From positions 1 to 55,429 of the forward strand of contig CALWKA010000008.1 in assembly GCA_944381155.1 (NCBI GenBank): a stretch of 55,429 nt of DNA, read 5' to 3'. Positions 40,439 to 55,429 of the stretch are shown one piece after another (position 1 is the stretch's first letter; each line of letters opens with the position of its first letter). Under the pieces are notes generated by a model. It saw only the letters and a list, made by a program, of their open reading frames with translations, did not search any database and was not told where the DNA came from. The DNA is from an uncultured Clostridia bacterium (lineage in GTDB: Bacteria; Bacillota; Clostridia; Christensenellales; UBA1242). A program made the position numbers and the translations under genes.

Positions 40439-43400
40439 TTATTTGTCTTTCCAATTGTTGTACATATCGCTGAAGCCTTTTTGCTGAAGTCTTTTTAATC
40501 GTATTTTGTTTATTATTTTATATGTGGCGTAGATTATTATGCCTAGCGCTACAATAATCAAAATAATGTCTGTGGTGGAAATGGACATAGTCAATGTCCC
40601 GTCAATGAATTCAATGTCATAGTTTTCGTTTGAATATGTCGCTGTTAGGCTATATTCGTTGCCGACATTGGAATATCTTGACGCTGGTGAATTTATCTTT
40701 ATGTTTAATTCGTCATTATTTGCCACACTGCCTTCAATGACCGTGTAGGATTTTTGATCTATCTTGTATTCAAATAATCTTTTAACTTTTTGGTCATTGA
40801 GTTGGATCGTAATCTTGCGTTTGTTTATTGTGAATATTCCGTCAATAAATGTTACATTATAGTTTTTGTCATTATTTATTGCGGTTAATGTATACTCACC
40901 AACATTGCTAAATTCATTAGCGTCTACGACTAGCGCGATATCTAAATTCTGAATCGTTGCCAAACTATCCCCTTCAATTTCTATCATATCTGAATCTAAA
41001 TTTATTTTATCACCATAAGTGCTAGATTGACTTTTTATTGTTACGAAAATTGGTCTTGGGGTGATGGTATAAACGCCTGTGCCCGTTATATTATAATTCG
41101 GATCGTTGCAATAAGGTTCGATTGGATATTCGCCCACATCGCTATTTTGGGTTGCGTCAAAAGTTAAGGATATCTTTAAGGAGTCTACATCTTTTTCTAA
41201 AATTGAGTAGCCGTCCGCAACGCTAAATAAAACACCATTGAGATTGTGTTCATCGTGGTAAATTCCTTCTTTGCTGTCAATTTCAATCATAACATTTCGC
41301 GGAAGAATAGTGTAGTTGCCCGAAACAAAATCAATGTCATAGTTGTCATTTGAATAACTCTTTATATAAATTTCATACCCTGTGTCAATCACATCGCTTG
41401 TGCTGGTTGCATCGGTAGATAAAATGACATTTAGTTCGTCAAGTGTATCGTCAAAAGCAAGCGAATTGTTATCGTCTAGTTTGAATGTTAACGCGCTTAA
41501 CTTCTCCCCATAATAGCTCGATGCGTCATCAATAATTATTCTAATAGGTTTTGATTCTATAGTGTAGTTTGCAGTGGACGAATTTATGTTATAGTTAAGG
41601 TTGGAATAACTTTTTATATATATCATATAATTGTCTACATTTTTATTGGTTTCAGCGCTGGTGGCAAGTTCAATACCCAAAACATCAATTGTATCACCAG
41701 GCGCCAGAGTGTAACCCTCGGCAAGCGAACAAGTCAACTCGCTTAATTCTTCACCATAAATACTGGACGCTTGATTAATGTTGATATAAATATTCCTTTG
41801 ATTAATAGTGTATACACCATTTTCATATAAAATATTATAATTTTTGTTGTAATCAGTATTTATACTGATATAATATCCTCCGACAACAGAATTAATTTGC
41901 GCGTTTGTCGTTAATTTTATGTCCAAGTCTTGCAACTCATCACACGATGCTAGCGTATAACCTTCTGATAGCGAGAAAGTTAAATCTTTTATTGTATCTC
42001 CATAATTGCTTGACTTATCATCTATTGCTATTGCTATTGTGCGTGAAGAGATTGTCAAAACGCCGGAGCTTAAAGTGATATTATAATTCTGATTGGAATA
42101 GTTTGTTAGAGTTATATCGTAGTTGCCAACAGGATCATTAATTTTAGCATTTGTTGAAAAGTTTAGCCCCAGATCATCATTGTTTACTACATTGTTGCTA
42201 GTTGGAATTAGCGAATATGAACTATTGTCTAATATGATTGCTTCTCCATATACCGCAGTTTGATTGGTGCTAATCGTTATAGGTCGAGCGGATATGGTAT
42301 AATTGCCACTAATTAAAGTTACATTGTAGTTTGAGTTGTTACTTTTTAAAGTTATGTTATAACCATTTCCAACATTTGATGTTGAAGTCGCGTTTGTTGA
42401 GAACGCAAGATTTAGATTGTCATTATTGGCTATAGTTCCTTCAATTATTTCATAAATATTTCCATTAAGAGATGGAGTGTTGCCATAGATACCAGATTGA
42501 TTGGTACTGATTGTTATAGGTCGAGCGGTTATGGTATAATTGCCACTAATTAAAATAACATTATAGTTTGAGTTGTGACTTTTTAAAATTATGCTATAAT
42601 CATTTCCAACATTTGATGTTGAAGTTGCGTTTGTTGAGAACACAAGATTCAGATTATCATCATTGACTATAGAGCCTTCTATTGTATCATAATTATTGCC
42701 ATTTAGTGACGGGCTATCTCCATACACGCCAGATTGATTGGTGCTGATAGTAATTTCTCGCGCTGTGATTGTCAAAACGCCAGAACTTAAAGTGATGGTA
42801 TAATTTTGATTGGAATAACTTGCGAGAATTATATCATAGTTGCCAACAGGATCATTAATTTTAGCATTTGTTGAAAAGTTTAGCCCTAGATCATCATCAT
42901 TTACAACATTGTTGCTAGTTTGAACTAGCGAATATGAACTATTATCTAATACGATTGTTTCCCCATATACCGCAGATTGATTGGTAGTGATTGTTATAGG
43001 TCGAGCGGTTATGGTATAATTGCTATTAATTAAAGTTATGTTATAGTTTGAGTTGTGACTTTCCAAAATTAAGCTATAATCATCTCCAACATTTGATGTT
43101 GAAGTTGCGTTTGTTGCGAACGAAAGATTTAGATTATCATCATTGGTTATAGAGCCTTCTATTATATTATAACTATTGCCATTTAATGACGGGCTATCAC
43201 CATACACGCCAGATTGATTGGTGCTGATCGTAATTTTACGCGCAGTGATTGTCAAAGTTGCGGGCGTGAAACGAATGTTGTAGTTTTCATTATTGCAAAC
43301 AGCGGTAATTTCATAATCTCCGACCGAACTTGTCTTTGTTGCATCTGTTTGCAAAGATATATCATAGTTTGAAGCGGGCAAATATGAATCGTCAATATAT

Positions 43401-46400
43401 ATGTTAGAGTTGAGTATAATATCTTCGCCATACACAAAGGTTTGATTGTCTATTCTTATGTCTAAAATTTGTGCTAAAATTGTCAAAATCCCTTCTTGCA
43501 AAGTTACATTATAATTTTTATTATTATAAGTCATTGTTATATCATAATCGCCTATTTCGCTTTCCGAATTGGCAGTTGTAGAAAATGTAATATCCAAGTT
43601 GGTATCTCCGCCCGCATATTCGCCTTTGCTGATAGTATAATCGTTGTTATCTAAAACAATAGACTCTCCCCGTTCAGAGTATTGATGAGTTGAAATTGAG
43701 ATAGGGCGCGCTTCGATAGTAAATGTTCCGCTTGAAACATCTACCGAATAATTTTTGCTGTTTGATTTGGCTGTTATTTCATATTCACCAATAGGATAAT
43801 TGCCATATTGATTTTGTGCTGGAAGGTTGATTGAATATTCTATTTCAAGCGAATCTCCGTTTACGATATTGCCACTAATAGTATAAAAACTATTTTCTGT
43901 TTCTAAAACATCCTCGCCATAAAAACTAGAATTATTATTGATGCGAATTTGTATGTTTCTTTTAGTTATTTGATATGTTCCGTTTTGAATTGTTATATCA
44001 TAATTGTTATTTTCGCTGGTCGTTGCACTAATAGGATAATTGCCAACATTGCTGGTCCTTGTCACTTCACATTTCGGAGTTATTGTCACAAACTTGGACG
44101 GGGTAGAAATTTCTTCTTCATTAGAATACAATGTGTATGTCAAGTTTTTAATTGCGTCCCCATATACGCTATTTTTGTCATCAAGTTTGATTGTTACCTT
44201 TTGCGGAGTAATAATAATTGTGCTGGATGATAATGTAATATCATAATTTCTATCATTATCCTTTAAGCTAATAGAATCGTCATAACTTCCTGCGTTGGTA
44301 GACGAATTAAGATTCGTGCTAAATGTGATTGATATTGTGTCGCCTTCCAATATATCTAAACTTCCTATTGCTAGTTCATATTCGGTATTGTCCAATACTA
44401 TATCTTCGCCATATTCAAAAGTTTGAGTTGTGGTTATAGAAATTGGTCTAGCAGAAATTCTATAATTTCCCTGCGTATAACTTATGTCATAATTGCTGTT
44501 GCTGTAAGTTAATACGATGCTATATGTGCCTGGCGTGCTATTTTGAGTGGCATAAGTGGTCAATTTTATATTCAAACTGTCATTATTTACAATGTTTCCC
44601 GAACTGATTTCATATTCCAATTCTTTGACCGGATCCCCATATACTGCAGATATATCGTTTATAGTTATTGTTATTGAGCGTTTGGTTATATTGAATGAAC
44701 TTTCATCGTCCAATGTGACAGCATAATTGTCATTAGAACAATGTAAAGCAGTTATAAAATTTTTGTAATTCCCTACAGGCGTAGATGAATTGATGACTGC
44801 GGTGTTGAAATCGGCAGTTAAAGTTATGTTATCAGTTGCAAGAAATTTATAACTACTAGTGACAGAATAGTCGAGCGCGGTCAGAGTTGTGTCTGGATTG
44901 TCGCCATATGCCATAGATTTTGTCAGTTTGATCGTGATTGGGCGGACCACTATATTATAGTCGCCATTTTCAATGCTGGCAGTGTAGTTTGAATTGCGGA
45001 TAGTGGCAGATATACTATTAGGATAATTGCCTATGTTTGTAGATGATGTTATGCTGGAAGATATGCGGTATGATATGTTTAAATCAGATTCTGTGTCGCC
45101 ATTTACGAGCCCAGAAATTGAAGATGAACAACCTGTCACATTCGGTGATGTGCCATAAATTTGCACTACATCATTTACTTTAATATTTATTGATTTCGCT
45201 TTAATTGAATATGTACCATTTGTGAATGTAATATGATAATTTGAATTTGTCCAGTTGCCAGTGATTGGGTAGTTGCCTACATTGCTTGCGCTCGTTGCGG
45301 TTGTTGACAATCGAACGCCTAATGATGATGAATTTTCGCCACTAGCATAGCTACCTGAAGTTTTCGACCAAGATAGAGATTTTAAACTATCTCCATAAGT
45401 GGCAGACACATTATTTATAGCAACATTAATATTCCTTGGGTTTATTGTAAGAGTTGCTGAACCATATGTGGTGGAGTAGTAAGAATCTGAAGTTGAAATT
45501 TCAAAGTATACTACCATATTTGATGTCGCGTTTTTAAAAGCATTGTTGAATATGCTAGATTCAATATCAGTGTAAAATTCAGATACTCCATCAATTCTAT
45601 AAGCCACCGAGTATGATGGTATGTTTACAGACAAATTTATGTTGTGATATGTTCCGTCGTATGTGAAAGATGTGTTGCTAACTGAATAAGGTATGTTGTT
45701 CATATCGGTTAAACACACCATTCCCCAACCAAAATATATATCTTTTCCCGAACTTCCTATATCCTTAGCGAGTTCATATAGTTTGCTTTCTATTGAGTCA
45801 CAGGTATACATATTTGAATTGTCATATATTGGATCCAAACACAATAGCGCGACCACTCCCGCAACATGGGGGGCAGACATTGATGTCCCTGTCATTTGAG
45901 CATATCCACCGCCAATATATGCAGAATTGATAGCCACACCTGGTGCGGTGATATCTACTGTATCGCCATAATTGGAACCTGTTGGACCAGAATAAAGAGT
46001 GTAGTCTGATGTCATATTTGATACTACAATAGCCGTTTCATCGCAACAAGCGGGAAAATAATTTGTGGTAATGTCAGCGTCGTTACCTGCGGATACAACA
46101 CAAAGTGCATTGTGAATATTTTTTATTTCGTTAAACGCATTGTCAAATTGATTTTTAATTGCTGAATATTGTCCAGAAGGTATATTTCCACCTATACTCA
46201 TATTTATAGAGACTATGTCATATTCGGTTAAATTTGCCAAATATTCCAACCCTTGCAACATTGTGAGATTAGTTCCACCACCAGACGAATCTAAAACTTT
46301 TATTGGCAAAATTTTAACATTTGATGGCGTCAAATCACAAATAATTCCAGCCACATGCGTGCCGTGCCCATTATCATCTTCAAATGAAGTTCTGCCATCG

Positions 46401-47179
46401 TCTAAAAATCTAGCGCCTACGATTTGATTGGATCCATTTCGCAATAATCGATTCGAAAACATAGAGTGGTCGGTGTCTATGCCCGTATCTAATACAGCCA
46501 CTACCACCGTTTCAGTTGAATTTTCAGATATATAATTTAAATACGGATCTACATTTATGTAATCTTCACCCGCTCCCCAAGAATTATGTGTATTGTTTGT
46601 GCTGACTATTGAGTAGTCACTAGCATACATCACAGTTTCTGCGCTCACAATAAGATCGTTGTTTTGCGATATTTGATTGAATGCATACTTTGTTTCTTCC
46701 ACCGTAGAATATTCCAATATCGTATAATCTTCATATCCTGTAATTGAATTGATAGCATTGTATGTGTTTGAAACTTCTCCACCTGTTACAATTAGACGCT
46801 TTAGCCCGAAGTATTGGTCAATGTAATATTGTCCGTTTTGAAGGTGCACGCTGTAACCTAATTCGTTACAAATATCTTTTATATCTTCATAACTTAAGAT
46901 TGCGGGTTCTTCTGCTGTTGTGCTTAAACTTGCAACATTGTACCCCAGAGCATTCATAAGTTCGTCATAATCAACATCTTTTTCTAATATTATTGTTTCA
47001 TAATCATTATTAGACAACATTTTGTTTATTTGTCTGTTAAATTCTTCGTATGTTATACCAATAGAAATTGATTGATTTTCAAAAATTTTATTCGGCGTCG
47101 CATAATACAAAAAAATTATGGCAAGCACAATAAAAGCCATACATAATATTTTAAAATATACTTTTAATTTTGAATTCAT
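40439..47179 (-). CDS. Giant membrane-anchored subtilisin-like protease with ~20 MBG repeats
   Basis: A 2246-residue surface protein. A hydrophobic segment (about 9-27) acts as signal or anchor. A propeptide-like region leads to the S8 peptidase domain with a complete triad: Asp231 (AVLDTGIDTDH), His272 (NGHGTHVAG), Ser433 (GTSMSAPHVAG), plus SAGND with the oxyanion Asn. From about residue 500 to 2195 there are about 20 tandem repeats of 70-85 residues of the MBG type, each with a beta-strand like ITISTNQSGVYGDS and ending near NYNITL..G.YTI. The C-terminus has a helix (2205-2220) and a basic tail. No LPxTG motif is present, so anchoring is by membrane helices. The ATG lacks an SD and lies about 5 bases after the predicted start of transcription. 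Confidence 0.93.
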   Translation of the reverse strand: MNSKLKVYFKILCMAFIVLAIIFLYYATPNKIFENQSISIGITYEEFNRQINKMLSNNDYETIILEKDVDYDELMNALGYNVASLSTTAEEPAILSYEDIKDICNELGYSVHLQNGQYYIDQYFGLKRLIVTGGEVSNTYNAINSITGYEDYTILEYSTVEETKYAFNQISQNNDLIVSAETVMYASDYSIVSTNNTHNSWGAGEDYINVDPYLNYISENSTETVVVAVLDTGIDTDHSMFSNRLLRNGSNQIVGARFLDDGRTSFEDDNGHGTHVAGIICDLTPSNVKILPIKVLDSSGGGTNLTMLQGLEYLANLTEYDIVSINMSIGGNIPSGQYSAIKNQFDNAFNEIKNIHNALCVVSAGNDADITTNYFPACCDETAIVVSNMTSDYTLYSGPTGSNYGDTVDITAPGVAINSAYIGGGYAQMTGTSMSAPHVAGVVALLCLDPIYDNSNMYTCDSIESKLYELAKDIGSSGKDIYFGWGMVCLTDMNNIPYSVSNTSFTYDGTYHNINLSVNIPSYSVAYRIDGVSEFYTDIESSIFNNAFKNATSNMVVYFEISTSDSYYSTTYGSATLTINPRNINVAINNVSATYGDSLKSLSWSKTSGSYASGENSSSLGVRLSTTATSASNVGNYPITGNWTNSNYHITFTNGTYSIKAKSINIKVNDVVQIYGTSPNVTGCSSSISGLVNGDTESDLNISYRISSSITSSTNIGNYPNSISATIRNSNYTASIENGDYNIVVRPITIKLTKSMAYGDNPDTTLTALDYSVTSSYKFLATDNITLTADFNTAVINSSTPVGNYKNFITALHCSNDNYAVTLDDESSFNITKRSITITINDISAVYGDPVKELEYEISSGNIVNNDSLNIKLTTYATQNSTPGTYSIVLTYSNSNYDISYTQGNYRISARPISITTTQTFEYGEDIVLDNTEYELAIGSLDILEGDTISITFSTNLNSSTNAGSYDDSISLKDNDRNYDITLSSSTIIITPQKVTIKLDDKNSVYGDAIKNLTYTLYSNEEEISTPSKFVTITPKCEVTRTSNVGNYPISATTSENNNYDITIQNGTYQITKRNIQIRINNNSSFYGEDVLETENSFYTISGNIVNGDSLEIEYSINLPAQNQYGNYPIGEYEITAKSNSKNYSVDVSSGTFTIEARPISISTHQYSERGESIVLDNNDYTISKGEYAGGDTNLDITFSTTANSESEIGDYDITMTYNNKNYNVTLQEGILTILAQILDIRIDNQTFVYGEDIILNSNIYIDDSYLPASNYDISLQTDATKTSSVGDYEITAVCNNENYNIRFTPATLTITARKITISTNQSGVYGDSPSLNGNSYNIIEGSITNDDNLNLSFATNATSTSNVGDDYSLILESHNSNYNITLINSNYTITARPITITTNQSAVYGETIVLDNSSYSLVQTSNNVVNDDDLGLNFSTNAKINDPVGNYDIILASYSNQNYTITLSSGVLTITAREITISTNQSGVYGDSPSLNGNNYDTIEGSIVNDDNLNLVFSTNATSTSNVGNDYSIILKSHNSNYNVILISGNYTITARPITISTNQSGIYGNTPSLNGNIYEIIEGTIANNDNLNLAFSTNATSTSNVGNGYNITLKSNNSNYNVTLISGNYTISARPITISTNQTAVYGEAIILDNSSYSLIPTSNNVVNNDDLGLNFSTNAKINDPVGNYDITLTNYSNQNYNITLSSGVLTISSRTIAIAIDDKSSNYGDTIKDLTFSLSEGYTLASCDELQDLDIKLTTNAQINSVVGGYYISINTDYNKNYNILYENGVYTINQRNIYININQASSIYGEELSELTCSLAEGYTLAPGDTIDVLGIELATSAETNKNVDNYMIYIKSYSNLNYNINSSTANYTIESKPIRIIIDDASSYYGEKLSALTFKLDDNNSLAFDDTLDELNVILSTDATSTSDVIDTGYEIYIKSYSNDNYDIDFVSGNYTILPRNVMIEIDSKEGIYHDEHNLNGVLFSVADGYSILEKDVDSLKISLTFDATQNSDVGEYPIEPYCNDPNYNITGTGVYTITPRPIFVTIKSQSSTYGDKINLDSDMIEIEGDSLATIQNLDIALVVDANEFSNVGEYTLTAINNDKNYNVTFIDGIFTINKRKITIQLNDQKVKRLFEYKIDQKSYTVIEGSVANNDELNIKINSPASRYSNVGNEYSLTATYSNENYDIEFIDGTLTMSISTTDIILIIVALGIIIYATYKIINKIRLKRLQQKGFSDMYNNWKDK

Positions 47180-47191
47180 AATCTATTATTA

Positions 47192-47220
47192 ATTTTATAT
47201 AACTATAATTATTTTGTCAA
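47192..47220 (-). promoter_or_regulatory. Promoter of the giant subtilase gene
   Basis: TTGACA (47220-47215), 17 bases, TAAAAT (47197-47192). The start is near 47185, giving a leader of only about 5 bases and no SD. Confidence 0.7.
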
Positions 47221-47234
47221 CTAATGCAGATTCT

Positions 47235-47450
47235 ATGTTCAAAAAGATAAAAACAAGATTTCAACTATCGCGCTGGGCGCAAAAAAGCGAAAATTTAGCA
47301 TTTTTCTATTTTGCTTTAAAAAAAACTGTTATCAGTATAGTTAAAAATAAACTTGTTTTATCAAAAAATACAAAAATAGTGCCAATTGAAGCGAAAACCA
47401 ATAGCAAAAAGGAAAAATTATTATCATCTATTTTGAAAACCAAGAAATGA
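47235..47450 (+). CDS. Hypothetical basic small protein (71 aa)
   Basis: A 71-codon frame beginning MFKKIKTRFQLSRWAQK and ending SSILKTKK. It is strongly basic with a modest hydrophobic middle. I do not recognise it. There is no SD; a TATAAT at 47204-47209 lies upstream but without a good -35. It borders a stretch of decayed DNA, so it may be a remnant or chance frame. Confidence 0.3.
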   Translation: MFKKIKTRFQLSRWAQKSENLAFFYFALKKTVISIVKNKLVLSKNTKIVPIEAKTNSKKEKLLSSILKTKK

Positions 47451-47751
47451 AAGGAATTTAATCAATAAACGGGAGCGTTCGAGAATCGTCAAAAAGTTAC
47501 CTAATGTATGGATCTATTTTACGCGAATACTATGAGTGGAAAGAAGAGAATAATGCCACACCAAAAATTTGAATTTGAGTTCTAAAATGTAAGCACTATA
47601 TTTCACAAAAGACTTCATAAGTTTTTTATTATGTCTTTTGGAATGCTTTTGTATGAGAAAATTTTGATATTGTTTATGGCTGGTGGGGGGGGATAAGAGA
47701 GTATGTATACTTTAATGTGAAACTATTATTTATTATAAGTTTGCTTACTGG
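47451..47751. other. Unassigned, probably decayed coding DNA
   Basis: This stretch is less AT-rich than ordinary gaps and holds broken protein-like frames, for example one ending at 47572 that reads YLMYGSILREYYEWKEE in the middle. An eight-base G run lies at 47685-47692, the longest G tract I see here. I cannot identify the parent genes. Confidence 0.4.
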
Positions 47752-47904
47752 GTGAAATCTATATTAAAAATAAATTTATCGGTGTTAATCTATGTAAAAG
47801 CTTTTTATAAAAAACTTAAAGAGAATGAAATCGATTATCAAATAAGTGAAGAAATCAAATCTGCAACACAAACGGATAAACTAATGAAAAGAAAATCTAT
47901 ATAA
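47752..47904 (+). pseudogene. 3' fragment of an unidentified gene, followed by a terminator
   Basis: The frame is open from about 47716 to a TAA at 47902-47904 without an ATG; a GTG at 47752 would give 50 residues. The end reads AFYKKLKENEIDYQISEEIK then ends KLMKRKSI, which looks like real coding sequence. A hairpin terminator begins at the stop codon, as expected for the end of an operon. Start signals are missing, so it is treated as a remnant. Confidence 0.35.
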
Positions 47905-47939
47905 TAAAAATCGACAGCGTTCACTGGTGGATTTTTATT
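47903..47939 (+). terminator. Terminator after the gene fragment
   Basis: AATAAAAATC (47903-47912) pairs with GATTTTTATT (47930-47939) around a 17-base loop with a further CAG/CTG pairing. The right arm is T-rich. Confidence 0.6.
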
Positions 47940-48029
47940 TATTAGCTAGTTTGAGAATGTCGACAAATTTTTCAGGAAATTAATTGTTATTATTCATAAG
48001 ATATGTTATACTTTTTTTTAACAAAACAA

Positions 48030-48117
48030 TAAAAAATCAAGACCATTCAGTCTTGATTTTCCAGTGCACACTGCACAATGATTAGAATACATTTATTTGA
48101 ACTCGTTATGTTATTCC
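48030..48117 (-). ncRNA. tracrRNA: tracrRNA of the type II-A CRISPR system
   Basis: The minus strand from about 48117 to 48030 (about 88 nt) has every part of a tracrRNA. The 5' end GAAUAACAUAAC pairs over 12 bp with repeat positions 9-20. A bulge follows (GA in the repeat, GAGU in the tracrRNA), then UCAAAU pairs with the first six repeat bases, one a G-U wobble. This 2/4 bulge matches the S. pyogenes arrangement. Then come a nexus-like region (GUGCA-GUG-UGCAC hairpin) and a perfect 11-bp terminator hairpin (48033-48043 with 48050-48060) with a U run. A TTGACT-N17-TATACT promoter fixes the 5' end. It is divergent from cas9. Confidence 0.9.
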
Positions 48118-48126
48118 ATATATAGT
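48097..48126 (+). promoter_or_regulatory. Predicted cas9 promoter inside the tracrRNA 5' region
   Basis: TTGAAC (48097-48102) and TATAGT (48121-48126) with an 18-base spacer, or TATATA (48119-48124) with 16. The start is near 48133, with AAGGAG before the ATG at 48159. Weaker than the tracrRNA promoter, which it overlaps. Confidence 0.5.
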
Positions 48127-48152
48127 ATATCAAAATAAACTAAAGGAGTCAA
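48124..48152 (-). promoter_or_regulatory. tracrRNA promoter overlapping the cas9 ribosome-binding site
   Basis: TTGACT (48152-48147), 17 bases, TATACT (48129-48124) on the minus strand. The -35 box shares bases with the cas9 SD (AAAGGAG, 48142-48148), and the -10 box overlaps the predicted cas9 -10. Confidence 0.78.
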
Positions 48153-48158
48153 GCAAAA

Positions 48159-51100
48159 ATGGAAAAAAATTATTATTTAGGTTTAGATATAGGCACTAAT
48201 AGTTGCGGATTTGCGGTAACTGACGAAAATTATAACATAATTAAGAAAAAAGGTAAGAAACTTTGGGGTGTTCGACTTTTTGACGAGGCGGTGACAGCAG
48301 AAGAAAGAAGATTTAAACGCGGAGCACGAAGAAGGTTAGATAGAAGAAAATTAAAATTGGATTGGCTTCAAGAAATATTTTTGAACGAATTGAATAAAAT
48401 TGATCCTGGTTTTATTTCAAGGTTGAAATACAGCAATCTTTATTTCGAAGATAAAATATTATTAGATAAAAAGATAACTTCAAAAGATTCGCTATTTTAT
48501 GATGTGAGTGATAAGGTTAAATATACAGATAAAGAATATCATAAAGAATATCCAACAATTTTTCATTTAAGAAAAGAGTTATTAGAAAAACCGGCTAAAG
48601 ATGTACGCTTTTTATATCTTGCGCTACATAGCATAATAAAAAGGCGTGGAAATTTTTTGTTTGAAGGCAATTTTAGTTCGTCACAATCTTTGATGAATGA
48701 TATAAATGACATTATAGAACTTTCACAATCTTTGCAAGAAGATATTTACACCATTAATCTAAATAAAATAGACAACGAGCAAGAAAATGCCATTATTAAT
48801 TTATTAAATGAAAATAAGGGAATTAAGTATACAAAAAATGAATTGTATAAAATTTTCAACACAAATTTTAAGCAGGATAAGAAGTTGTTAGACATTTTAG
48901 TTGATGGTAAAATTGAAATTGATTTCATTTTTCCAATAAAGTTAGAAGAAAAAATAAAAATTAATTTCAATGATGAGAATATAGATGAGGAAATTGAAAA
49001 TTTGTCCAACACATTAAGCGAAGAACAGTTTTCATTTTTAGAAAGTTTAAGAAGAGCATATTCAAATATGCAATTAAAGAAAGTTTTGGCAAAAAATAAT
49101 TATGTGTGTGAAGCAATGGTTGATATTTACAACACACACAAATCTCAACTAAAAATGTTTAAAAAGTTTATTAAAGACTATTATCCAAGTTTGTATAATC
49201 AAATGTTTAGAGATCCATTAAACGATTCCAGCAAAAAAATAACTAATTATGCACTCTATGCAAACATTGATTCAGTGAATGGCAAAAAAAATGTTGTCGG
49301 TTTATCTTATGGAGATTTGGCAGATAGGTCAAAAGAAAGTTTTTATAAATATGTGTTGAATATTCTTTCTAATGCACCAGAGAAACTAGAAAGTGACGAA
49401 AATGAGTTTATATCTAGAAAAAACAATATAATAGAATTAATAGAAATGGACAACTTTTTACCAAAATTACGAACCAAAAACAATTCAATTTTTCCAAATT
49501 TCCTTTTAGTAAATGAAACACGAAAGATATTAGAAACAAATAAAGAAAAATTTTCATTTTTAAGTCAAAAAGACGAATCTGGGCTTAGCAATATTGAAAA
49601 AATAATAAGTATTTTAAAATTTAGGATTCCATATTTTGTTGGTCCAATTGGCGATAGTAAAAATGCGGAAAGTGATTTTAGTTGGGTTGAAAAGAAACAA
49701 AATATAGAATTGCGTCCGTGGACATTAAATAAAATCATTGATTTTGACAAGGCTGAAGACGCTTTTATTAATAAAATGACAAATAAATGCACTTATTTGT
49801 ATACAGAAGAAGTTTTACCTAAACATTCGCTAGTTTATTCAAAATTCAGAGTGTTAAATGAACTAAATAACCTAAAATTTAATGGAAATGGAATATCAGT
49901 ACAATTAAAACAAAAAATTTATAATGATTTATTTAAAAACAATAAGAAACTGACCATTAAAATGTTGAAAGATTATCTTTTGGCAGAAGGTATTTATACC
50001 AAAGAAGAGATAAATAATCTTTTAATAAGTGGTATTGATAAAGAATTTGCAAACCAATTATCCGCATATGTCGACTTGAAAAACAAAGGAGTTTTTAACG
50101 AAACTTTTATTGAAAATAATTTTGATGTGTTTGAAAACATTATAAAATATCACACGATTATTTCGGATAAGAACAGACTAATTGAACGAGTAAAGCGTGA
50201 ATATCCTAAATTGTTTTCTGACGAACAATTAAAAGTAATTAAATCTTTGAACTATTCAAATTGGGGAAGGTTGTCATACAAATTTTTATGCGGATTGCAG
50301 TTTGTTGACAAAACGACTGGTGAGTTAACCACAGTTATGGACGAATTGTGGAATACTAACCAAAATCTTCAACAAATAATTTATAACACTAATTATACTT
50401 TAAATGAAGAACTTGCTAAATACAACAAAAACAACAAAAATAATTTAGATTATCAAGATGTTGAGCATCTTTATTGTTCTCCGTCTGTGAAACGCGCAAT
50501 ATGGCAAACATTGCAAATTATAAATGAAATTATAGAAGTAATGCAAGGCATACCCAAGCATATATTCGTTGAAGTGACACGAGATGATGATAAAAAAGGC
50601 GATGATGGAAGAAAATTATCACGCCAAGATAATTTAAAGAAAGTATTTTCTTCAAAAGAGTTTTTGTCAAGCGTAGATACAGTAAAGTATGACCTAGATA
50701 AATTGATGGACGAACTAAATAAAACAGAAAATAATAGTTTGCGAAGCGAAAAATTATATCTGTATTTTTTGCAATTAGGGAAATGTGCATATTCTGGCGA
50801 GCCTATTGATTTGAAAGATTTATATGACGAACACAAATATGATGTTGACCACATTATTCCACAATCAATTTTAAAAGATGATAGTTTAGACAACAAAGTA
50901 TTAGTTCGTGGAGAGTTGAATAAACAAAAAAGTAATTATTATCCAATTTATTCAAGATTTCCTAGTTGGGTAAACAATCAACGGCCATTTTGGGAACTAT
51001 TGTATAAACAAAATTTAATGAGCAAAACAAAATTTGAAAGATTGGTAAGAAAATCAGAATTGACAGATAGTGAATTGGGCGATTTCATTTCAAGGCAATT

Positions 51101-52418: not shown

Positions 52419-53279
52419 ATGGGTTTTAGAATTGTTGTTATAAAAAATCGTTCCAAATTAGATTTAAAAATGGATTATTTGGTGTGCAGAAGCAGTGAAA
52501 CATATAGTGTCTTCATTCCTGAAATTTCAACATTAATACTTGAATCTACTGCAATTTCTCTAACCTGTGCACTTGTGAGTGAATTAATAAAGAATAATGT
52601 TAAGATTATTTTTTGTGATGAAAAGCATAATCCTGAAAGTGAACTTGTTTCATATCGTAATAGTTATAATTCTTCTAAGAAAATTAAACAACAGATTATG
52701 TGGTCAGAAGATGTGAAAAAGGAAGTTTGGTCTAGAATTATAAAAGATAAAATTATGAAGCAATCACAGCTTTTAAGCGAACGCAAACATGAAATTGAGA
52801 GTAAAATGCTTATAGATTATTCCCAACATATTTTAAGTAATGATATCACAAATAGAGAAGGACATGCAGCAAAAGTTTATTTTAATGCACTATTTGGAAT
52901 GAGTTTTTCAAGACGAAATGAACATCAAATAAATAGTGCATTAAATTATGGTTATGCAATAATTTTATCTTGTTTTAATAGAGAAATTGTAAAAATGGGA
53001 TATATGACACAATTAGGAATATGGCACAGAAACGAATTTAATGCTTTTAATCTATCGTGTGATTTGATGGAACCATTTAGAATTTTGGTTGATAAGCTAG
53101 TTTTAAATTTAGATGCAGATAAAGATATGAAAAGCCAAATGCTAGAAATATTTAATTTAAAAGTCAAAATTAATAACAAATTACAAGTGTTAGAAAATGC
53201 TATTACTATTTATTGTCAAAGTGTGATTGATGCATTAAATAAAAATGATGCAAATTTAATTAAGTTTTATGAGTTGTAG
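52419..53279 (+). CDS. cas1: CRISPR-associated integrase Cas1
   Basis: Cas1 joins new spacers into the array with Cas2. The 286-residue length is typical of type II. The metal-binding residues are Glu147 (NREGHAAKVYF), His203 (GIWHRNEFN) and Glu218 (DLMEPFR). The N-terminal beta domain starts GFRIVVIKNRSKLDLK. It lies 6 bases after cas9, and its last codons overlap an alternative cas2 start, so the four cas genes form one operon. Confidence 0.97.
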   Translation: MGFRIVVIKNRSKLDLKMDYLVCRSSETYSVFIPEISTLILESTAISLTCALVSELIKNNVKIIFCDEKHNPESELVSYRNSYNSSKKIKQQIMWSEDVKKEVWSRIIKDKIMKQSQLLSERKHEIESKMLIDYSQHILSNDITNREGHAAKVYFNALFGMSFSRRNEHQINSALNYGYAIILSCFNREIVKMGYMTQLGIWHRNEFNAFNLSCDLMEPFRILVDKLVLNLDADKDMKSQMLEIFNLKVKINNKLQVLENAITIYCQSVIDALNKNDANLIKFYEL

Positions 53280-53283
53280 AATT

Positions 53284-53589
53284 ATGAGATTAATATTATT
53301 TTTTGATTTGCCGAGCGTTGATTCTAAAGATTTGGTGGAATATAGAAATTTTCGCCGATTTTTAATAAAAAATGGATTTATTATGATGCAAGAATCTGTT
53401 TATAGTAAGTTAGTCACTACAGGCTCTTCATCGGCATTAATGAAAAAACAAATAGAAAAAAATTTGCCGTCTTCCGGTATTGTTCAATTACTTGAAATCA
53501 CAGAAAAACAATATGCAAGCATCCAATACTTATTAGGTAAGTCAAAATCAAATGTGATAGATTCAGATAAAAGGATTATAGAATTATGA
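53284..53589 (+). CDS. cas2: CRISPR-associated protein Cas2
   Basis: Cas2 is the structural partner of Cas1 in spacer acquisition. With the ATG at 53284 it has 101 residues and the usual start MRLILFFDLPSVD, with a ferredoxin-like fold expected. An in-frame ATG at 53269 lies inside cas1 and would add five atypical residues, so the second start is chosen. The stop TGA overlaps the csn2 ATG (ATGA). Confidence 0.95.
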   Translation: MRLILFFDLPSVDSKDLVEYRNFRRFLIKNGFIMMQESVYSKLVTTGSSSALMKKQIEKNLPSSGIVQLLEITEKQYASIQYLLGKSKSNVIDSDKRIIEL

Positions 53590-54248
53590 AAATAGTCCAT
53601 CCATATATTGAAAGACAAATTGATTTTAATCAAAACAATTGTTATGAATTGATTATAGAAAATTCTAATCAATTTTTTCGCCTTAGTTCAGATATTATAA
53701 ATCAATGTAATAATACGGATGGAGATTTTGTAATATCAGATTATAAAATTTTAGATTTTAGCAAAATTTGTTTATCAATTTATGATTTCTATAATTTCAA
53801 CACTAACACCAAAAAAATTTCAAATCTTATAAATGCTGAAGTAAGTGACATCTTAAAAAATGGTGATTTTTTGCAAGAATTTTCAGTTATTAACAAAATG
53901 TTAATTGATATAAATGATAAGATTAAAGATGAATTAGACTTCACTCTCCAATCAGTTGAAGATTTTGATTATGATAAATTTATTAAATTTTCGAATTTTA
54001 AATTAGAAAAATCTGGAGATTTATTAAGCGATATGATTGATTATATCACTGTTATGCAAAAACTATCTGATTTGAAAGTTGTTGTGTTTATTAATGCCAG
54101 TTGTGTTTTTAATGAAAAACAAATAAACGACATAATAAAACAACTAACCTATATGCAGCTAAACATTCTATTTATTAACAATAACCAAAAATATTTTTTA
54201 AAAGATATTGAGCATATTATAATAGATAACGATTTATGTGAGATCTAA
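53586..54248 (+). CDS. csn2: CRISPR-associated protein Csn2
   Basis: Csn2 forms a DNA-end-binding ring needed for spacer acquisition and defines subtype II-A. The 220-residue length is that of the canonical short form. The overall layout (N-terminal beta region, central acidic helices around IKDELDFTLQSVEDFDYDKF, and the C-terminal VVVFINASCVF and LNILFINN strands) parallels S. pyogenes Csn2, where VFVNSGAYL and TVLFLE occupy the same places. It starts within the cas2 stop. The array promoter begins at the very next base after its stop. Confidence 0.9.
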   Translation: MKIVHPYIERQIDFNQNNCYELIIENSNQFFRLSSDIINQCNNTDGDFVISDYKILDFSKICLSIYDFYNFNTNTKKISNLINAEVSDILKNGDFLQEFSVINKMLIDINDKIKDELDFTLQSVEDFDYDKFIKFSNFKLEKSGDLLSDMIDYITVMQKLSDLKVVVFINASCVFNEKQINDIIKQLTYMQLNILFINNNQKYFLKDIEHIIIDNDLCEI

Positions 54249-54336: not shown

Positions 54337-55429
54337 GTTTGAGAGTTATGTTATTCTAGATACTACTAAAACCGCAACAAATCTTTCGTCCATCACAACT
54401 TGGTTTGAGAGTTATGTTATTCTAGATACTACTAAAACTTCAAGAGACAAGGACAAAAAATTAATTTCGTTTGAGAGTTATGTTATTCTAGATACTACTA
54501 AAACTAAATATGCTAGAAACATCACCAGTAAGCGGTTTGAGAGTTATGTTATTCTAGATACTACTAAAACTAAATAGTCAATCTTGTCTTTTTTGTCTTC
54601 GTTTGAGAGTTATGTTATTCTAGATACTACTAAAACCTTTTTCGCTTGCACTACATTTACTGCGTTGTTTGAGAGTTATGTTATTCTAGATACTACTAAA
54701 ACTTTTAGTTATTTCCTGGCTTTCGTATTGTTGTTTGAGAGTTATGTTATTCTAGATACTACTAAAACTCTTTCTTTATTTTAGTTATGGCATAATCAGT
54801 TTGAGAGTTATGTTATTCTAGATACTACTAAAACTTTGTTCGATTATTTCTTTTAATAATTCCTGTTTGAGAGTTATGTTATTCTAGATACTACTAAAAC
54901 CAAATTGAAACTTACAAAATCGCAGATGTTGTTTGAGAGTTATGTTATTCTAGATACTACTAAAACTGCTAAATAACAAATATGACATTGATTGTTGTTT
55001 GAGAGTTATGTTATTCTAGATACTACTAAAACCGTTAGCAGGCGGCATAGCAAGCGGAGTTGGTTTGAGAGTTATGTTATTCTAGATACTACTAAAACAT
55101 TCTACGGCGAAGGAAAGAACGCAGATTAGTTTGAGAGTTATGTTATTCTAGATACTACTAAAACATATTCCCCATCTTTTGTAAAGTTGTTCGAGTTTGA
55201 GAGTTATGTTATTCTAGATACTACTAAAACATATTTGCCAAGCAGTTATAAGAGAAGGCAGTTTGAGAGTTATGTTATTCTAGATACTACTAAAACATTT
55301 TCATAAATATTAACACCGGTGTCAATGTTTGAGAGTTATGTTATTCTAGATACTACTAAAACACAGGTATAGGACAATTAGCAAATATTTTAGTTTGAGA
55401 GTTATGTTATTCTAGATACTACTAAAACA
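54337..55429 (+). CRISPR. Type II-A CRISPR array, 17 repeats visible, runs off the window
   Basis: Seventeen identical 36-base repeats start at 54337 and recur every 66 bases to 55393-55428, separated by sixteen 30-base spacers; the final base of the window begins another spacer. The repeat begins GTTTGAGAGTTATG and ends ACTACTAAAAC, close in form to the S. pyogenes/S. thermophilus repeats. The leader, promoter and ATTTGAG lie on the left, so new spacers enter there and transcription runs rightward. No repeat is degenerate, consistent with this being the leader side. The right end is not seen. Confidence 0.99.

Follow-up and report, generated by a model that had tools for sequence, protein, structure and literature searches.

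From which promoter is cas9 transcribed at a type II-A locus whose tracrRNA gene points away from it, and what does the position of that promoter mean for the tracrRNA? To our knowledge, the balance between Cas9 and its guide scaffold in bacteria is understood mainly from streptococci. We addressed this question in a 55,429-nucleotide stretch of DNA (hereafter the window), which is one whole contig of a 1.0 Mb genome in 18 contigs and which carries at its right end a type II-A locus with cas9, cas1, cas2 and csn2, followed by repeats. All four cas genes, arranged as a single operon, exceeded the curated NCBIfam cut-offs (Table 1), and the locus has the further hallmarks of type II-A, as it contains a CRISPR array together with a tracrRNA that can pair with the array repeat through its anti-repeat. 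As the contig end (55383-55429) lies inside the array, the spacer number is a lower bound, with at least 17 repeats. RNase III is encoded in the genome (170.5 bits). The Cas9 protein was 35–36% identical to those of the nearest named contigs, which come from assemblies labeled 'uncultured Clostridia' and 'Lachnospiraceae'. Several family members (L008, L027-L033 and L035) carry a different, shorter Cas9, with open frames of approximately 1030-1170 aa that match the middle of the query only.

The intergenic region 5' of cas9 spans 979 bp (47180-48158). Its left neighbor is an ORF of 2246 aa that lies on the opposite strand, and cas9 is thus not transcribed from that gene. The ORF (40439-47179) encodes a subtilase domain together with 15 MBG (YGX type) repeats, probably as part of a large surface protease, and a TTGACA-17-TAAAAT site directly before it (47220-47192, minus strand) is likely its promoter.

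Table 1. Features of the type II-A locus and of the region upstream of cas9 (positions within the window)
Feature	Position	Strand	Remarks
Probable promoter of the cas operon (TTGTTA-17-TATACT, TG present), P2cas-like	47984..48012	+	10.1 bits
Predicted cas9 mRNA leader (~140 nt), complementary to all of the tracrRNA	48019..48158	+	Inferred from promoter position
tracrRNA (anti-repeat, nexus, GTGCA/TGCAC hairpin, terminator)	48030..48117	-	Predicted ends, +1 at ~48117
tracrRNA terminator hairpin and U-tract, 15 pairs	48030..48063	-	1 found, 0.1 expected in shuffles
Previously proposed cas9 promoter TTGAAC-18-TATAGT	48097..48126	+	6.5 bits, p 0.085-0.109; judged a by-product
tracrRNA promoter TTGACT-17-TATACT, TG before -10	48124..48152	-	12.9 bits
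cas9 Shine-Dalgarno AAGGAG	48143..48148	+	Two bases common to tracrRNA -35
cas9, 1417 aa	48159..52412	+	TIGR01865, 848.6 bits
cas1	52419..53279	+	TIGR03639, 295.7 bits
cas2	53269..53589	+	TIGR01573, 65.1 bits
csn2	53586..54248	+	TIGR01866, 107.7 bits
CRISPR array with 17 repeats (36 nt each, 66-nt spacing)	54337..55428	+	Broken off by contig end

For comparison, we used 67 loci from among the matches listed, comprising 18 of the same family, 27 of the order, and 22 of the class and the named contigs; an earlier run covered 45 of them. Promoters were scored with approximate weights. Tests of the gap between the anti-repeat and cas9 included 65 loci, the two with gaps shorter than 60 nt being excluded, and the far-upstream control included the 52 loci with enough sequence. 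Left out were L023 (no anchor motif), L005 and L080 (partial matches), L018 and L020 (cas9 start missing), L007 (the same place as L064, which stood in for it), and L008, L027-L035 and L086-L092 (matching just the central part of Cas9, for the most part in shorter Cas9s). The gene start of G104, which lies on a different contig, entered the set as L063. A script assigned the start codons, two of which (L036 and L064) seem incorrect on inspection.

The tracrRNA that a first-pass annotation had read from the letters on the minus strand, running from approximately 48117 to 48030, is real. Its anti-repeat (GAATAACATAAC / GAGT / TCAAAT) and the repeat (GTTTGA / GA / GTTATGTTATTC) form 12 and 6 pairs around a 2/4 bulge, with one G-U, the RNA ends in a terminator, and its predicted fold was better than that of 200 out of 200 shuffled sequences (z-score -4.1). 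Rfam yielded no match anywhere in the window at the gathering threshold, so the identification rests on the repeat pairing, the terminator and conservation. In 13 aligned family loci the anti-repeat is near-invariant while the hairpins vary. The nexus, which had also been annotated, is kept as sequence in these 13 loci but did not appear as a clear stem when the tracrRNA was folded alone. We sought repeats in 21 places (20 fetched stretches plus the window) and used 19, since none were present in L010 and L038 read N. In these 19 loci, the anti-repeats formed on average 12.8 Watson-Crick pairs out of 14 positions with their own repeats (minimum 9), compared to 9.6 when repeats were swapped (282 swaps). 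The longest unbroken run of pairing was less telling, as shuffles of such A+T-rich sequence reach 11-15, often near the real value.

The annotation of a strong promoter for this RNA was likewise confirmed. TTGACT-17-TATACT was the top minus-strand site of the 979-bp intergenic region, with p-values of 0.005 (45-locus scan) and 0.010 (67-locus scan), each of which is the floor of the test. Of the 65 loci, window included, 62 had a minus-strand promoter in the gap with p ≤ 0.05 and 57 had one that scored 10 bits or more (0.3 expected), and every one of the 18 family loci had a significant one. The earlier reading that the tracrRNA -35 shares bases with the cas9 Shine-Dalgarno sequence also holds: the common bases are 48147-48148, and an overlap with a recognizable Shine-Dalgarno sequence was scored by a coarse rule in 17/65 loci, 13 of them among the 18 family loci. 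The -35 starts at most 6 nt from the cas9 ATG in 16/18 family loci, and no more than 20 nt from it in 52/65 loci overall. The contact between the tracrRNA promoter and the cas9 Shine-Dalgarno is real, being common in the family and less so elsewhere.

The first-pass annotation had gone further by placing the best cas9 promoter within the same gap (TTGAAC-18-TATAGT, plus strand), with a -10 that overlaps the tracrRNA -10. Divergent starts at approximately 48117 and 48133, 16 bp apart, would allow RNA polymerase to occupy only one promoter at a time and thereby balance tracrRNA and Cas9. The arithmetic of the two starts is correct, but the spacing depends on the overlapping promoter, which we could not confirm. 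Even though the site is a 9-of-12 match, it scored 6.5 bits compared to 10.1 bits at 47984-48012, tied for second place among the plus-strand intergenic sites with two others of the same score, and reached p-values of 0.085 (45-locus scan) and 0.109 (67-locus scan). Plus-strand sites scoring at least as high were present in 15 of 65 gaps, the window's own included. Moreover, TTGAAC falls within the anti-repeat and is invariant in the 13 aligned family tracrRNAs, its sequence being fixed by the anti-repeat, which in turn follows from the repeat. Most of TATAGT is simply the complement of the tracrRNA -10. Promoter-like sequence between the tracrRNA and cas9 invites such a reading, but for the most part it is accounted for by the anti-repeat and by the opposite strand of the tracrRNA promoter.

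Nor is the claimed overlap kept in relatives. Plus-strand gap promoters showed no excess over the 65 loci (mean 5.18 bits versus 4.70 bits in shuffled sequences), none reached 9 bits (1.0 expected), only six reached p ≤ 0.05, and in the nearest intact relative (L009) the corresponding p-value was 0.587. Two observations favor the overlapping promoters. L064, the only other locus of the same genus, in which cas9 is broken, carries TTGAAC-18-TATAAT in the gap (p 0.035) and suits the earlier model better. Furthermore, weight-free -10 matches on the plus strand of the gap were found in 6 and 6 of 67 loci, compared to 2.8 and 3.2 expected, and this roughly twofold frequency over chance means that a weak second cas9 promoter is possible in some gaps. 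Given these data, we consider it quite unlikely that mutually exclusive, overlapping promoters set the balance. As a candidate for the main cas9 promoter, TTGAAC-18-TATAGT was rejected in both scans (45 and 67 loci).

The likely cas9 promoter, as judged from sequence and comparison, instead lies on the far side of the tracrRNA gene. TTGTTA-17-TATACT, located just past the tracrRNA 3' end and facing cas9, was the top plus-strand site of 47180-48158, where the next three sites scored 6.5 bits, with p-values of 0.015 (45-locus scan) and 0.020 (67-locus scan). A promoter upstream of 48000, which the first-pass annotation had itself named as speaking against a cas9 promoter next to the tracrRNA start, is in effect what we observed at 47984-48012. 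Between 45 and 230 nt ahead of the anchor motif, 39 of the 67 loci had a plus-strand promoter with p ≤ 0.05 and 26 had one that reached 10 bits (0.6 expected), compared to 6 and 2 loci (0.6 expected for the latter) on the minus strand (paired Wilcoxon p 3e-7 for the two strands upstream of the tracrRNA). The earlier run on 45 loci had given 25 versus 4. A far-upstream control showed a slight plus-strand excess, with 9/52 loci at p ≤ 0.05 and 2/52 at 10 bits or more (0.4 expected). Significant upstream plus-strand promoters were present in 8/18 family loci, 19/27 order loci, and 12/22 loci of the class and the named contigs; 28 of the 67 loci were without one. A count that used no weights gave the same pattern: TGNTATAAT, allowing for a single mismatch, occurred 60-120 nt before the anchor on the plus strand in 34/67 loci (5.8 expected) and on the minus strand in 4/67. 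The distal -10 lay at a median of 29 nt from the tracrRNA terminator hairpin (35 loci), and within 40 nt in 23/35, although a few of the hairpin assignments behind these distances look wrong (for example in L067). No pair among the 67 loci had more than 45% common 10-mers in the upstream region.

In its position next to the 3' end of the tracrRNA, facing cas9, the plus-strand site at 47984-48012 corresponds to the P2cas type. According to a study on Streptococcus agalactiae (PMC12216829), P2cas is located at the tracrRNA 3' end, drives cas and is regulated by CovR; strains mostly also carry a second promoter, P1cas, between tracrRNA and cas9, which was lost in CC-17, and strains without P1cas rely on P2cas. 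As both kinds of promoter occur in S. agalactiae, and as the window has a site of each kind, cas9 might be transcribed mainly from the promoter past the tracrRNA 3' end and to a minor degree from one in the gap. The lack of an excess of strong plus-strand gap sites in the 65 loci argues against such a pair, as does the short gap (60-85 nt from anchor to ATG in most of the 45-locus scan), due to which any gap promoter must overlap the anti-repeat and the tracrRNA promoter. We regard this arrangement as unlikely here.

Another precedent points to a different product of the upstream promoter. In S. agalactiae, an antisense RNA of approximately 100 nt that covers the 3' end of the tracrRNA was described in 2015 and called unique to the species (PMC4448216), and the promoter at 47984-48012 could similarly produce a separate short antisense RNA that ends before cas9. 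However, we found no plus-strand terminator in 47400-48600 or 47170-48170, and hence none between this promoter and cas9, which would moreover need another promoter, and the comparison showed none. In addition, later work on S. agalactiae showed that cas is driven by this same promoter (PMC12216829). A separate short antisense RNA is thus highly improbable.

The reading that we favor, and consider probable, is a convergent type II-A layout with facing promoters, in which the cas9 message would be antisense to the whole tracrRNA and may lower its amount. The positions of the promoters and their recurrence come from sequence and comparison, and the antisense cas9 leader from the promoter position. 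From its position against the cas9 Shine-Dalgarno sequence, the tracrRNA promoter (48152-48124) would fire leftwards, with the RNA ending at approximately 48030, while the cas promoter would fire rightwards from a start at approximately 48019, and its transcript would run across the tracrRNA terminator, then the gene itself and its promoter, before entering cas9. The cas9 message would probably be read straight through the tracrRNA gene in the antisense direction and would open with approximately 140 nt that are complementary to the entire tracrRNA (fold z-score of the predicted leader -3.5). As cas9 transcription would cross the tracrRNA promoter, polymerases might collide or be displaced, and the duplex of antisense RNA and tracrRNA would be a possible substrate of RNase III. 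Through collision and duplex cutting, cas9 transcription should lower free tracrRNA, whereas the tracrRNA terminator would shield the cas promoter from tracrRNA transcription. Since the cas9 Shine-Dalgarno sequence lies approximately 25 nt past the tracrRNA 5' end, the cas9 message would still be translatable after the duplex had been cut. We also considered whether the one-sided form of the tracrRNA terminator points to plus-strand read-through, but dropped this idea, as these bases are also under constraint from the neighboring tracrRNA hairpin.

The same layout could also reflect compact packing with no regulatory meaning, wherein a short region crowds the promoters and the tracrRNA is unaffected by the antisense leader. 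Economy of intergenic sequence is common in general, and we consider this a serious possibility, if somewhat short of an even chance. The layout recurs despite little common upstream sequence, however, which suggests that it has been retained, even though an effect on the tracrRNA is a separate matter.

In its working, the convergent layout would most resemble the P2cas system of S. agalactiae, likewise a type II-A system with a tracrRNA that diverges from cas9 and has its own promoter. It differs in that S. agalactiae mostly has P1cas and a long tracrRNA, while no recurrent P1cas-like gap site was seen in our loci, and in that the tracrRNA -35 touches the cas9 Shine-Dalgarno sequence here. 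The type II-A locus of S. pyogenes likewise has a divergent tracrRNA 5' of cas9; there, a long tracrRNA (tracr-L) guides Cas9 to Pcas, in a form of autorepression (PMC11417352). We searched for a similar repeat-like extension in the window, within the 383 nt upstream of the tracrRNA, where the longest pairing with the anti-repeat was 9 nt and thus no better than chance (shuffles: mean 8.5, maximum 14), although a diverged form could escape this search. In convergent or nested antisense gene pairs, promoters face each other and one transcript crosses the other gene and its promoter, causing transcriptional interference. Compared to such pairs, the crossed gene here would be the guide RNA needed by the very protein that the crossing transcript encodes.

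A literature search, which covered subscription papers little, returned no report of the distal-promoter layout outside S. agalactiae. Within the scope of this search, the recurrence of a P2cas-like layout across the order and the class, with no recurrent P1cas-like site, appears to be new, and what was a streptococcal feature is likely a general layout in a large uncultured group. If many type II-A cas9 messages were antisense to the whole tracrRNA, the two would be coupled by the layout of the DNA, without a long tracrRNA, and direct coupling between Cas9 and tracrRNA becomes testable. A wider proposal, which we put forward as tentative and rather doubtful, is that in type II-A systems throughout the order and the class the usual cas9 leader is a full antisense sponge for the tracrRNA, whose transcription crosses the tracrRNA promoter; this would constitute a Cas9-independent brake that ties scaffold to nuclease, with P2cas alone as the usual state and P1cas as a streptococcal addition.

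Two further observations concern the tracrRNA promoter in other loci. In five more distant loci (L060, L074, L075, L076 and L079) a single base separates the end of the tracrRNA -35 from the cas9 ATG, and promoter crowding recurs there at an offset other than that of the window's family. In another species of the same genus (L064/L007), the tracrRNA and its promoter are kept at a decayed locus, in which the match to cas9 is limited to the first 82 residues and contains one internal stop.
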